Source: Actinopolymorpha singaporensis
Lineage (GTDB): Bacteria > Actinomycetota > Actinomycetes > Propionibacteriales > Actinopolymorphaceae
Length of the DNA stretch: 64,000 nucleotides
Direction: 5' to 3'
Assembly: GCF_900104745.1 (NCBI RefSeq)
Contig: NZ_LT629732.1
Span: 5,629,981-5,693,980 of the forward strand
Part shown: piece by piece, positions 1-48,562 of the stretch
Position numbering within the stretch: position 1 is the stretch's first letter
How the letters are laid out: each line of letters begins with the position of its first letter
Translations under genes and position numbers: made by a program
The notes under the pieces: model-generated
Told to the model about the DNA's origin: nothing
Seen by the model: only the letters and a program-made list of their open reading frames with translations
The model's database searches: none

Positions 1-790
1 CGGCATCCTCGGCGACCAGCAGGCGGCGACGTTCGGCCAGGCCTGCTTCGAGGTGGGTACGGCGAAGAACACCTACGGCACCGGCAACTTCCTGCTGCTG
101 AACACCGGCACCGAACGCGTGATGAGCCAGAACGGCCTGATCACCACCGCCTGCTACCAGATCGGCGACAACGCACCCGTCTACGCACTGGAGGGGTCGA
201 TCGCGGTCACCGGGTCGCTGGTGCAGTGGATCCGGGACAACCTCGGCCTGATCAGCCGGGCGGAGGAGATCGAGACGCTGGCGCGTTCGGTGGACGACAA
301 CGGCGGCGCGTACTTCGTCCCGGCGTTCTCGGGGCTGTTCGCGCCGTACTGGCGTTCCGACGCCCGGGGCGCCCTGGTCGGCCTGACCCGCTACGTCAAC
401 AAGGGCCACATCGCCCGCGCCGTCCTGGAGGCCACGGCGTACCAGACCCGCGAGGTCGTCGACGCGATGAACGCCGACTCCGGCGTCGCCCTGACCGAGC
501 TCAAGGTCGACGGCGGCATGGTGGTCAACGAACTTCTGATGCAGTTCCAGTCCGACATCCTCGACGTACCGGTGGTCCGCCCGCAGGTCGCCGAGACCAC
601 CGCGCTCGGCGCGGCGTACGCGGCGGGTCTGGCCGTCGGCTACTGGTCCGGCGAGGACGACCTGCGCCGCAACTGGCAGGAGGACAAGCGCTGGACGCCG
701 AAGATGGACGTCAAGATGCGCGAGCGTGACTACGCGCGCTGGAAGAAGGCAGTCACCCGGACGTTCGACTGGGTGGACGACGAGGACTGA
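1..790 (+). CDS. glpK: Glycerol kinase, C-terminal part (5' end outside window)
   Basis: The reading frame is open from base 2 to the TGA at 788-790, giving the last 262 residues or so of a FGGY-family kinase of about 500 residues. Glycerol kinase phosphorylates glycerol to sn-glycerol 3-phosphate with ATP in the cytoplasm. The [11 protein letters not shown] segment belongs to the second actin-like ATPase domain. The later [13 protein letters not shown] segment is the C-terminal FGGY signature in the form typical of GlpK rather than of xylulokinase or gluconokinase. The first methionine visible here is internal, so this is a partial gene and not a short protein. It is convergent with the nitroreductase gene that follows. 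Confidence 0.95.
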
Positions 791-43613: not shown

Positions 43614-44954
43614 ATGCACGCACCCCACTCACCGGCCGCTTCATTCCCCCACGAACCGGTCGAACCCGGCGAACGACTCGGTGGATCCCTCCGACAGGAT
43701 GCCGTGGCCGCCGCGGACTCTCCGGCCGACCACCGCCGGCTCGGCCGCGAGCTCGACATCTTCACCGGCGACGAACTCGTCGGCGCCGGCTTCCCGCTCT
43801 GGCTGCCCGACGGTGCCGCCGTCGTCGCCGAACTCGAGCGCTACGTCCTCGACCTGGAGCGCCGGCAGGGCTATCGCCACGTGCGGACCCCCGCGCTGGG
43901 CAAGCGCGCGTTGTACGAACGCTCCGGCCACTGGCAGCACTTCGGACCGGACATGTTCCCGCCGTTCCGGGTGGGCGGTGAGGACCTCGTCCTGCGGCCC
44001 GTGCTGTGCCCGCACCACGCCCTGGTCTACCGCTCCCGGCTGCGCAGCCACCGCGAGCTGCCGCTGCGGATCGGGGAGGTCGGGTCGATGTACCGCATGG
44101 AGCGGTCCGGCGTGGTGGGCGGCCTCACCCGAGTCCGCGGCATCACCCTGAACGACGCGCACATCTTCTGCGCGCCGGAGCAGGCCGCGCGGGAGGCGGT
44201 GCGGGCGCTGGCGATGATCGACGAGGCGTACGACGTTCTCGGGATCCGCGCGGCGTACCACCGGCTGTCGCTGCCCGGTCCGCCGGAGGTGGGCAAGTCC
44301 TATGCGGGCGAGGCGCCGATGTGGGAGCGCGCCGAGGCGATCCTGCGGGACGCGCTCGAACAGCACGGCGTGGAGGTTCGCGCGGTGCGGGGCGAGGCGG
44401 CGTTCTACGGACCGAAGATCGACGTACAGGTGTACGACGCGCACGGGCGGGAGTTCACCCTCTCGACCGTGCAGGTGGACCTTTACCAGCCGGAGCGGTT
44501 CGACCTGGAGTACGTCGCTCCCGACGGCAGCCGGAGGCGGCCGGCGATGGTGCACCGGAGCGTGCTGGCGTCGATGGAACGCATGATGGCCTACCTGCTG
44601 GAGGCCTACGCCGGCGCGCTCCCGCCCTGGCTCGCACCGGTCCAGGTGCTCGTCCTCCCGGTGAGCCCGGCGCAGGCCGAGGCAGCCCGGACGGTGGCTC
44701 TGCGGGCCGAGGAGGCGGGCCTACGTGTCGACGTGGACGACCGCGACGAGAGCCTGGGCGCGCGGGTGCGGGCCGCGCGCCCGCGCCGGGTGCCCTATCT
44801 CGCGGTGGTCGGCGCGCGGGAGGCCGAGGCCGGCAGCGTGTCGGTCCGGCTGCGCGACGACCGCCGGCTGCCCGCGCTGCCGGTGGACGCGTTCGCCGAT
44901 GGCGTGGCGGCAGTGGTCGCCGACCGCCGCCGCGACCTCGGGTTCGCCGGCTGA
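43614..44954 (+). CDS. thrS2: Short threonyl-tRNA synthetase paralogue lacking the editing region
   Basis: The 446-residue class II synthetase lacks the TGS and N-terminal editing domains of ordinary ThrRS (about 640-690 residues). It retains the catalytic core with motif 2 (RIGEVGSMYRMERSG), motif 3 (VHRSVLASMERMMAYL) and an anticodon-binding domain (QVLVLPVSPAQAEAA onwards). The three zinc/substrate ligands are all present: Cys in VLCPHH, His in LNDAHIFC and His in MVHRS. It should charge tRNA-Thr but cannot clear Ser-tRNA-Thr by itself. The start ATG 43614 has a GAAGGAGA site. Possible roles are resistance to a ThrRS inhibitor or a stress paralogue. Confidence 0.85.
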   Translation: MHAPHSPAASFPHEPVEPGERLGGSLRQDAVAAADSPADHRRLGRELDIFTGDELVGAGFPLWLPDGAAVVAELERYVLDLERRQGYRHVRTPALGKRALYERSGHWQHFGPDMFPPFRVGGEDLVLRPVLCPHHALVYRSRLRSHRELPLRIGEVGSMYRMERSGVVGGLTRVRGITLNDAHIFCAPEQAAREAVRALAMIDEAYDVLGIRAAYHRLSLPGPPEVGKSYAGEAPMWERAEAILRDALEQHGVEVRAVRGEAAFYGPKIDVQVYDAHGREFTLSTVQVDLYQPERFDLEYVAPDGSRRRPAMVHRSVLASMERMMAYLLEAYAGALPPWLAPVQVLVLPVSPAQAEAARTVALRAEEAGLRVDVDDRDESLGARVRAARPRRVPYLAVVGAREAEAGSVSVRLRDDRRLPALPVDAFADGVAAVVADRRRDLGFAG

Positions 44955-46325: not shown

Positions 46326-47489
46326 ATGCCTGTTCACCAGCCCCTCGACCTGGCCGGCCTCGACCGGACGCTGAACTGCGCCGGTACGCCCTGGGATCTG
46401 GCGCGGAACCCGATGACGGCGCTGTCGGAGAGCGAGCGCGCCGACCGGGTCCGCTTCCCGCTGCCCAGGCCCCGCGCGGCCGAGGCCGGCCCCGGCGGGC
46501 CCCGGGTCACTGTCCCGGCGACGCCCGCCCCCGGGGCTCCCCGCCCCGGGGACCGGTCGAACCGAACGGGTGGCGACGCCGGTGAGGCGGGCCACTTCGA
46601 CCTGCGCGACGTGGACGGCGTCGACTACACCACGCCGGTCAAGGACCAGGGGCCGTGCGGCAGCTGTGTGGCGTTCGCGACGCTGGCCGCTGTCGAGCAC
46701 GTCGCCCGGTTCACCCGGCACATGCCCGACCTGCCGCTGGACCTGTCGGAGGCACACGCGTTCCACGGTTACGGCCGGTCCGACGGGGCGGGCGCGGACA
46801 CCGGCTGGTGGCCGGGTCGGCTGCTGCCGTCGGTCGCCGAGTCCGGCGTGGCGTTCGAGGACTGCCTTCCGTACTCCCCGAATGACGCCGACGACACGGG
46901 GCTGGACCCCGGCTGGCTCGACCGGCGCGTCCGGGTCACCGGCTTCACCCGGATCGGAGCCGGTCCGGGTGCGATCAAGGAGCACCTGCGCACCTACGGT
47001 GCGGTCATCGCCTGCCTCGTGGTGTACCAGGACTTCCTCAGCTACCGGTCGGGCGTCTACCGGCACCTGACCGGGGCGGCGACCGGCGGGCACTGCGTCG
47101 TACTGGTCGGATACGACGACGCCCAACAGTGCTGGATCGCCAAGAACAGCTGGGGAACCGGATGGGGCGAGCAGGGTTTCTTCCGGATCGGCTACGGCGA
47201 GTGCGACATCGAGTCCTACCCCGGTCCGGGTGGTGTCGAGGTTTACGGCATCACCGGCGTCACCCTGCGCGCCCTGCTGCCGGAAATGACGGTTCTCGCC
47301 CTGTGGGCGGGCGAGGACGACACCCACGTGTGGGTGTACGGCGCCGTACGCGGCTGGCTCAGCCTCGACGGTGACGACCTGACGCCGGAGCATCCGCTAC
47401 TGACGGAGCTCGCGACGTCGCAGGCCCTCGGACGGCCGGTCCGGTTGTTCGAGGACGACGGACGCATCACCTCGCTCCATCCTTCGTGA
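46326..47489 (+). CDS. Papain-family (C1) cysteine peptidase with C-terminal add-on domain
   Basis: The 387-residue protein has a Pro/Ala-rich leader of about 90 residues, then a papain fold. It shows VKDQGPCGSCVAFATLA with oxyanion Gln and nucleophile Cys near residue 115 (the usual Trp after the second Cys is Val), GGHCVVLVGYD with the His, and WIAKNSWGTGWGEQGFF with the Asn. No export signal is visible. After the peptidase, about 85 residues form a module ending SQALGRPVRLFEDDGRI that recurs in the next gene. I use ATG 46326; ATG 46116 with a better ribosome-binding site is an alternative. It is coupled to the next gene by a GTGA overlap. Confidence 0.88.
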   Translation: MPVHQPLDLAGLDRTLNCAGTPWDLARNPMTALSESERADRVRFPLPRPRAAEAGPGGPRVTVPATPAPGAPRPGDRSNRTGGDAGEAGHFDLRDVDGVDYTTPVKDQGPCGSCVAFATLAAVEHVARFTRHMPDLPLDLSEAHAFHGYGRSDGAGADTGWWPGRLLPSVAESGVAFEDCLPYSPNDADDTGLDPGWLDRRVRVTGFTRIGAGPGAIKEHLRTYGAVIACLVVYQDFLSYRSGVYRHLTGAATGGHCVVLVGYDDAQQCWIAKNSWGTGWGEQGFFRIGYGECDIESYPGPGGVEVYGITGVTLRALLPEMTVLALWAGEDDTHVWVYGAVRGWLSLDGDDLTPEHPLLTELATSQALGRPVRLFEDDGRITSLHPS

Positions 47490-47941
47490 GGATCCACACC
47501 ATGGCGACCACGTTCACCGAAGGAAGCTCGGCACGGGCTCCCGTTCCACGCACGACGGCGACCTCGACGGGCAGCGCGCCCGGCTCCCGCCCCGAGCCGC
47601 CGTTCACTCCCCCGCTGGCGCCGCCGCCGCGGCGCCGGGCGGGCGACCTCACCGAGGCCGACCTGGCCGCCGCGACCTGGGGTGCCCAGGTGGGCGCCCA
47701 GCCCGGCGTACGGCTCGGTCAGTGGCACACGAACGTCCAGGTCGAGGCGTACCGGCCGGCGGAGGGGCCGGGCACGCCGTGGCTGTTCCTGCGTGGGCCC
47801 GGCTGGCGCCGGTTGCCCCGCGCGGATGAACGCGCCGGCACCGCGCTGGCGTTCCTGGGCGCGCAGGCACACCGCACCGGCCGACCAGTTAGCGTCTGCG
47901 AGGACGCGGAGGGAGTGATCCGGCAGATCTACCTGTGGTGA
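47486..47941 (+). CDS. Small protein sharing the protease's C-terminal module
   Basis: The 151-residue product has a low-complexity Pro/Ser/Thr-rich first half and a compact second half. The pattern of the second half (WLFLRGPGWRRL, then QAHRTGRPVSVCEDAEGVI) aligns with the protease's tail (WVYGAVRGWLSL, then SQALGRPVRLFEDDGRI). It therefore looks like a free copy of that module. The GTG at 47486 overlaps the protease stop; an ATG five codons in (47501) is the alternative start. No known family is recognised. A role in protease targeting, inhibition or substrate presentation is conceivable. Confidence 0.65.
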   Translation: MRIHTMATTFTEGSSARAPVPRTTATSTGSAPGSRPEPPFTPPLAPPPRRRAGDLTEADLAAATWGAQVGAQPGVRLGQWHTNVQVEAYRPAEGPGTPWLFLRGPGWRRLPRADERAGTALAFLGAQAHRTGRPVSVCEDAEGVIRQIYLW

Positions 47942-48053
47942 ACGGCTGTCGAACCGAGCACGTGGCCGGGCAACCGTCCGTGCTGGGCACTCGCGCGCCG
48001 GCCGGTCCCGGTGGTCGGGCCGTACGGCGGGCGGGTGCCCGAGGACCGCTGCG

Positions 48054-48482
48054 CTAGGAGGTCGCGGGCCGGGCGCGTATCTCGACCTCGAAGCGCTCCA
48101 GGAAGCTCGTCTCCCAGGAGCGGCTGAGGACGAGCTCGGCCGCGCCCAGGCCGGGCGCGACGACGGCGAGCCGGACCAGCCTCTGCCCACCCGCACCCGG
48201 CACCGGTGCCGCACCGGTGCCGGCGCCGGGCAGCGCCAGTTCCGACGACACCACCTCCAGCGGCCCGGACACGCGTTCGACGCTCCACTGGTAGCCCGTG
48301 GTGGCGTTCTCCGGCAACTGCACGAGGATCTCGTCACCCACGGCCGCGACGGTCGACGTTCCGGTCTTCGTGACCACGATCTCGGCGATGGCGTCCACCC
48401 CCTTGACTGCGAGGTCGGATGAGTCAGCTCGGCAGGTGCTGGCCCACGCCACGGATCGGCCGGGTGCCGTCGAACTGGACAC
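48054..48482 (-). CDS. Chagasin-like (I42 family) cysteine-protease inhibitor
   Basis: The 142-residue product has the chagasin layout: VGDEILVQLPENATTGYQWSV, where NATTGY is the first inhibitory loop (NPTTGY in the family), GAGGQRLVRLAVV as the middle loop region, and SRSWE, the position of the RPW-type third loop. Chagasin-type proteins block papain-family proteases by inserting these loops in the active-site cleft. There is no signal peptide. The GTG at 48482 is used; a GTG at 48398 would give 114 residues, closer to family length. It is convergent with the papain-like protease gene 0.6 kb away, so inhibitor and likely target are neighbours. Confidence 0.8.
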   Translation of the reverse strand: MSSSTAPGRSVAWASTCRADSSDLAVKGVDAIAEIVVTKTGTSTVAAVGDEILVQLPENATTGYQWSVERVSGPLEVVSSELALPGAGTGAAPVPGAGGQRLVRLAVVAPGLGAAELVLSRSWETSFLERFEVEIRARPATS

Positions 48483-48562
48483 GTCAATGGTTCCTTTGGC
48501 CGCTCACCATAGTGCTTGGCCAGGCGTGCGCGGCGGTTATCACCAGGCTCGTTCGACGGGAT

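Follow-up and report, generated by a model that had tools for sequence, protein, structure and literature searches.

A putative protease-inhibitor unit in Actinopolymorpha singaporensis: a papain-family protease gene linked to a chagasin-family gene and a free copy of its OB-fold module

A three-gene cassette was found at positions 46326-48398 of a 64,000-nucleotide stretch of the genome of the soil bacterium Actinopolymorpha singaporensis (contig NZ_LT629732.1, positions 5,629,981-5,693,980; hereafter the window, in which all coordinates are given unless a locus is named). It encodes a papain-family (C1A) protease, a small protein that repeats the C-terminal module of the protease, and an inhibitor of the I42 (chagasin) family. 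The three genes probably make up a dedicated unit, in which a non-secreted and doubly locked cathepsin-like protease is accompanied by its own chagasin and an OB-fold partner. The basis for this reading is the conserved linkage of the genes, the presence of exactly two modules in 38 of 40 genomes, the intact catalytic and loop residues, and the lack of an inhibitor in three genomes whose protease has Ser for the catalytic Cys.

The protease gene (46326..47489, + strand, 387 residues) scores 119.2 bits against PF00112 in Pfam, for which the curated cut-off is 20.7. A complete Gln/Cys/His/Asn set is found at Q108 (46647-46649), C114 (46665-46667), H256 (47091-47093) and N274 (47145-47147), all on the + strand, in agreement with the original prediction that this is a C1 peptidase with an intact active site. 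Proteolytic activity is predicted from the family and this catalytic set, and all 39 rows of our protease alignment A2 match PF00112 as well. The structural model (predicted template modelling score 0.86) contains the C1 catalytic domain (residues 90-298 by Pfam range; 46593..47219, +) and, behind it, the fused OB-fold module (residues 307-385; 47244..47480, +), which was delimited by the strands and helix of the model, the module profile and alignment A5. In a fold search procathepsin B (1pbh) gave the best alignment to the model, 268 residues long (model positions 1..315), while mature cathepsin B entries cover 214-221 residues. Because the alignment to the zymogen reaches further, about 50 N-terminal residues (1-50; 46326..46475, +) resemble a propeptide, and this segment may obstruct the active-site cleft. 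No propeptide family was among the Pfam matches of the 39 protease rows. Residues 52-85 (46479..46580, +) form a linker that is predicted to be disordered (predicted local distance difference test score, pLDDT, <50). The ratio of non-synonymous to synonymous substitution rates (dN/dS) of the protease is 0.22-0.28 against two sister species and 0.42 against the second genus of the family.

The original prediction coupled the small protein to the protease through a GTGA overlap, with a start at 47486. This start is unsupported: the equivalent GTG is out of frame with a conserved ATG in sister genome G005, and a GAGGA motif (47488-47492) precedes the ATG at 47501, 11 bp past the protease stop. 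The ATG at 47501 therefore fits better and gives a gene of 146 residues (47501..47941, +). Among 39 relatives, for which gene starts were taken from a simple start picker, 12 have a gap of 10-13 bp between the two genes; the gap of 18 bp in L083 is unreliable, since the frame there crosses a masked stretch. What did stand is that the small protein repeats the C-terminal module of the protease. A direct BLASTP comparison of the fused and free copies in the window is weak (E 0.027), but the window small module as sole query retrieves protease open reading frames at other loci (best four E 2.5e-5 to 1.3e-4), and the predicted order of strands and helix is identical in fused and free copies. The free module (47720..47938, +) was modelled by AlphaFold2 with pLDDT >90, and its predicted fold is an OB fold of the B-subunit kind, nearest in the fold search to the B subunits of AB5 toxins. 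A sequence relation to a known AB5 B subunit was not found, as the module profile matched no PDB sequence up to E 10. The small protein belongs to no Pfam or NCBIfam family. Identity of the module with a known Pfam domain was rejected (one match among 39 members, E 0.0085), and the single match to an NCBIfam repeat-adhesin among the 39 (E 1.2e-4) was taken for chance. Its dN/dS against the two sister species is 0.34-0.44.

The inhibitor gene (48054..48398, - strand) converges on these two genes. Its product scores 58.4 bits against PF09394 (curated cut-off 27.2 in Pfam) and matches chagasin in the PDB with E 8.2e-6. The three binding loops of I42 proteins, of the NPTTG, GxGG and RPW types, are present as NATTGY (48291-48308), GAGG (48186-48197) and RSWE (48111-48122), and G35, W38, G68 and W95 are invariant across 48 inhibitor rows. 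Family, loops and orientation were thus recognised correctly by the original prediction; its start at 48482 was not, as the first 28 codons of that frame carry frame-breaking indels in sister species. The start is therefore probably the GTG at 48398, which gives 114 residues. The dN/dS of the inhibitor is 0.18-0.26 against the two sister species and 0.39 against the second genus. The I42 protein would probably inhibit the neighbouring protease. Directly upstream of its start, positions 48399-48530 (-) are strongly conserved in four species and non-coding in frame because of indels; this stretch may be a promoter or leader. A structured RNA was rejected, as three Rfam matches (E 1.5-2.9) all stayed below their gathering scores and none lay inside the leader.

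To place the cassette among its relatives, 84,980 species genomes were scanned and the best 80 of 500 relatives, ranked by likeness to the window protease, were retained. The linkage on which the original prediction had staked itself recurs there. The protease carries the C-terminal module in 43 of the 80 loci, and among these a free module gene adjoins it in 39, an I42 gene is linked in 36 (35 at most 1,065 bp from the protease stop and one at 2,193 bp) and both are present in 35. By the start picker, 23 of these 35 have the small gene and inhibitor co-directional and 12 convergent, and in four of the 23 the inhibitor overlaps the small gene by 4-11 bp. Seven module loci have no I42 on the locus (L058, L060, L093, L067, L082, L065 and L075). 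Two of these (L065, L075) are cut by contig ends, and whole-genome searches found their second module and I42 next to each other on a different contig. Among the 37 loci whose protease has no module, 20 have a linked I42 too (19 within 0.9 kb, one at 2.5 kb), so the pairing of protease and inhibitor reaches beyond the OB-module branch. In one relative (L078:10572-11312, +) the I42 domain shares a polypeptide with pentapeptide repeats, and a protease of the module type lies 2.2 kb away.

Whole-genome counts were made for 40 genomes that encode a close relative of the protease, the L080 genome being left out. The module is present exactly twice, once fused and once free, in 38 of them; it is dedicated to the protease unit, and the proposal that protease, inhibitor and satellite module belong together is borne out. 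I42 is found in 37 of the 40, compared with 37 of 197 genomes of the same class. In this class set PF00112 is present in 21 genomes, and both families co-occur in nine, the window's own included. The nearest pair lies 87-1,028 bp apart in all nine, where chance would give about 6e-4 per genome; two of the nine I42 matches (G166, G190) score below the Pfam cut-off.

Two further contrasts concern where the inhibitor is present. A linked I42 was found in none of 11 loci with a signal-like stretch before C1 and in 56 of the 69 others (Fisher 2e-7). This can serve as a guide only, because the hydropathy threshold of 2.3 was chosen after the values were seen, the rows are related to one another, the contig stops directly past the protease in three of the 11 loci (L095, L102, L118), and L040 and L084 have no readable N-terminus; two of the 11 have an I42 elsewhere in the genome (G264, G274). 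The cytoplasmic location in the original prediction agrees with the lack of a Sec-like N-terminus, by the hydropathy measure only. In addition, the catalytic Cys is replaced by Ser in L058, L060 and L093, whose genomes have no I42 anywhere, compared with 38 of 40 other loci that have it when the contig-split cases are counted as linked (Fisher 8e-4).

Complete cassettes come from seven phyla in the cassette tree and, in one further case, from Deinococcota. In Deinococcus aetherius the record lists a C1 family peptidase, a hypothetical protein and an I42 family protein in this order, and the module profile matches the first two of these. In the tree of 35 complete cassettes the rows cluster by phylum with six changes, the least possible, which speaks against frequent horizontal spread; the window row sits on a long branch and has an unusual composition. 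The protease was matched in eight plasmid and four phage records, none covering more than 80%, and the module type occurs on one plasmid. On a Streptomyces canus plasmid (L203:1631-4702, +) C1 lies at the far C-terminus of a protein of 1023 residues, the first 787 of which match no Pfam family; an I42 gene follows immediately downstream.

Several observations weigh against a dedicated unit. The three Cys-to-Ser loci are close kin of one clade and count as one event. L067 (G035) has kept its Cys, yet its genome has no I42. In the archaeal L082 both I42 domains that were found are on a different contig from the protease. In the class set 28 of the 37 genomes with I42 have no PF00112 match, so many bacterial I42 proteins must act otherwise. 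The protease-inhibitor distances give the lowest Mantel correlation of all pairs (r 0.46, compared with 0.68 for protease and small module), and this correlation could come from shared ancestry. Within the own family, A. rutila (G004) has an intact inhibitor beside a protease that is split over two frames, and in the second genus (G006) about 4 kb that contain other genes separate the inhibitor from its two partners. Lastly, a propeller-tailed paralogue with intact-looking active-site motifs occurs without any I42 in G003 and G249, and the corresponding locus of the window genome has no I42 either. As an observation in its own right, a single open frame of 221 residues in the L082 genome, a metagenome-assembled genome of Methanosarcinales (G245), encodes both I42 domains (G245:C27:5443-6000, -); the protease and two free copies of the module gene are present in this genome as well.

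How the unit probably works can be outlined as follows. In cis, the procathepsin-B-like segment on its disordered linker would form one lock, and cleavage of the linker could free the segment. In trans, the chagasin would fill the active-site cleft by its three loops and so shield the producing cell from protease molecules that mature too early. The OB tail of the protease and the separately encoded OB partner would most likely form a mixed complex that positions the protease on its target, where it would be free once both locks are off. All of this is inferred: inhibition itself, the blocking of the cleft by the N-terminal segment, the complex of the two OB modules, and where, when and on what the protease acts. 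As to purpose, we lean tentatively towards release when cells are damaged or preyed upon, because lectin-type tails take the place of the OB module in sister proteases; on balance this purpose is still rather doubtful. A more specific version is improbable: the OB tail and the free OB protein might form a mixed ring like an AB5 B pentamer with the papain zymogen as cargo, made without a Sec signal, silenced by the chagasin and set free by lysis to act on predators or rivals that bear glycans.

A toxin/immunity unit, with the protease as effector against competitors or predators, the chagasin as immunity protein and the OB modules binding the target, departs from the locked protease in purpose more than in chemistry. 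We consider it possible but not probable. A dedicated and linked inhibitor would suit it, as would the closeness of the OB fold to AB5 B subunits and the lectin-type tails on sister proteases: Fungal_lectin replaces the OB module in the Actinopolymorpha paralogues P0008 and P0009, and DUF346 repeats, which we take to form lectin propellers, are found in L087, L110, L115 and L116, and weakly in L117. However, by hydropathy no Sec-like signal precedes C1 in the module loci, the cassette tree with its grouping by phylum does not point to frequent transfer, and no delivery genes are among the top 25 of 102 families in the neighbourhood. This survey took in 81 proteins that flank 24 of the 43 loci with the module, and among those top 25 families none had more than three members. 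The protease could equally be directed at its producer, as a stress or cell-death protease that acts inside the cell once the inhibitor is gone, possibly downstream of caspase-like proteins; we give this about the same modest chance. A cluster of sigma-70 region 2 genes lies near eight loci (L059, L060, L062, L064, L067, L070, L077 and L093, from Pseudonocardiaceae and one Nocardioides metagenome-assembled genome), six of which also have a TPR-CHAT protein nearby, and a caspase-family gene follows the D. aetherius cassette. These clusters were made by BLAST with Pfam run on representatives only, and such neighbours are missing from most loci. A known anti-phage system was rejected as well, as the PADLOC 2023 library gives no family for the three window proteins, which also weighs against the self-directed reading; the lone weak match, to IetS (E 0.0018), is a subtilase neighbour in L059. 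Since the toxin/immunity and self-directed alternatives share the mechanism of the locked protease, their probabilities overlap with it.

It is very unlikely that the inhibitor is aimed at proteases of foreign origin and lies next to the protease incidentally. A secreted Pseudomonas chagasin does act on plant proteases, according to the accessed part of PMC5014320, and the many class genomes that have I42 and no PF00112 would fit such a role. However, C1 and I42 are adjacent in all nine co-occurring genomes, most cassette inhibitors have no signal-like start by hydropathy, and the inhibitor is gone where the catalytic Cys is lost.

The window genome has one I42 and four PF00112 matches. All three genes occur in five of eight genomes of the family (G000, G002, G004, G005, G006), and small protein and inhibitor are both missing from the other three, of which G003 has only the propeller-tailed protease. 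The protease of A. rutila DSM 18448 is 92% identical to that of the window in the best segment. The second C1 protease of this family in the window genome (L036:8255-10213, +) ends in a propeller that resembles fucose lectins; a GYD-domain gene lies upstream of it, and I42 is not linked to it. Sister protease L103 has an FG-GAP tail. A C1-like peptidase (L039:4586-6621, -; G000:C1 ~1570585-1572620) carries intein signatures directly before its presumed catalytic Cys; these are weak Hint and Intein_splicing matches, and the reading frame is broken within the intein region. Elsewhere in the window, 43704-44954 (+) encodes a 416-residue class II aminoacyl-tRNA-synthetase-like protein (tRNA-synt_2b and HGTP_anticodon) that adjoins thyX and is kept in sister genomes.

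Protease genes with a linked gene for a cognate inhibitor are of a known kind, represented by staphopain-staphostatin and by the C10 pairs of streptococci and Bacteroides. The cassette resembles them in having the inhibitor gene beside the protease gene, and differs from these pairs of exported C47 or C10 proteases, with I57 inhibitors, in combining C1 with I42 and an OB partner. Compared with chagasin/ICP of Trypanosoma cruzi (I42; PDB 2nnr, 3cbj) and C1 proteases, the unit is bacterial, has adjacent genes and adds the OB-fold partner. Compared with the cathepsin B zymogen, the window protease adds a disordered linker and an OB tail and has no Pfam propeptide family. The module in turn differs from AB5 B subunits in having no sequence relation to them, no Sec-like signal by hydropathy and one copy fused to an enzyme. 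The fungal chimerolectin Marasmius oreades agglutinin, as far as the partial source describes it, joins a lectin-type domain to a papain-like protease and so resembles the propeller-tailed sister proteases, although its lectin fold is unrelated to their tails.

That bacterial chagasins inhibit own proteases has been proposed before (Rigden, 2002, as cited in PMC2784779). The accessed portion of that 2009 paper reports verified inhibition only for the Pseudomonas aeruginosa protein, against a eukaryotic protease, and does not mention C1-I42 gene linkage. In 2016 the role of bacterial chagasins was described as not elucidated (PMC5014320, in the part seen), and the words 'chagasin', 'gene cluster' and 'synteny' are absent from the part of a 2023 survey of the papain family that was available (PMC10380794). 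We found no paper that describes linked C1 and I42 genes together with an OB family in two copies in an open-access library, the only literature covered, and such absence is no proof of novelty. The module defines an OB-fold domain family without a convincing match in Pfam, NCBIfam or PDB sequences. If the ring reading were true, the cassette would represent a bacterial lectin-protease armament that follows the AB5 design with a protease. The linkage itself supplies a concrete candidate role for bacterial chagasins, together with protease-inhibitor pairs that are ready for testing.
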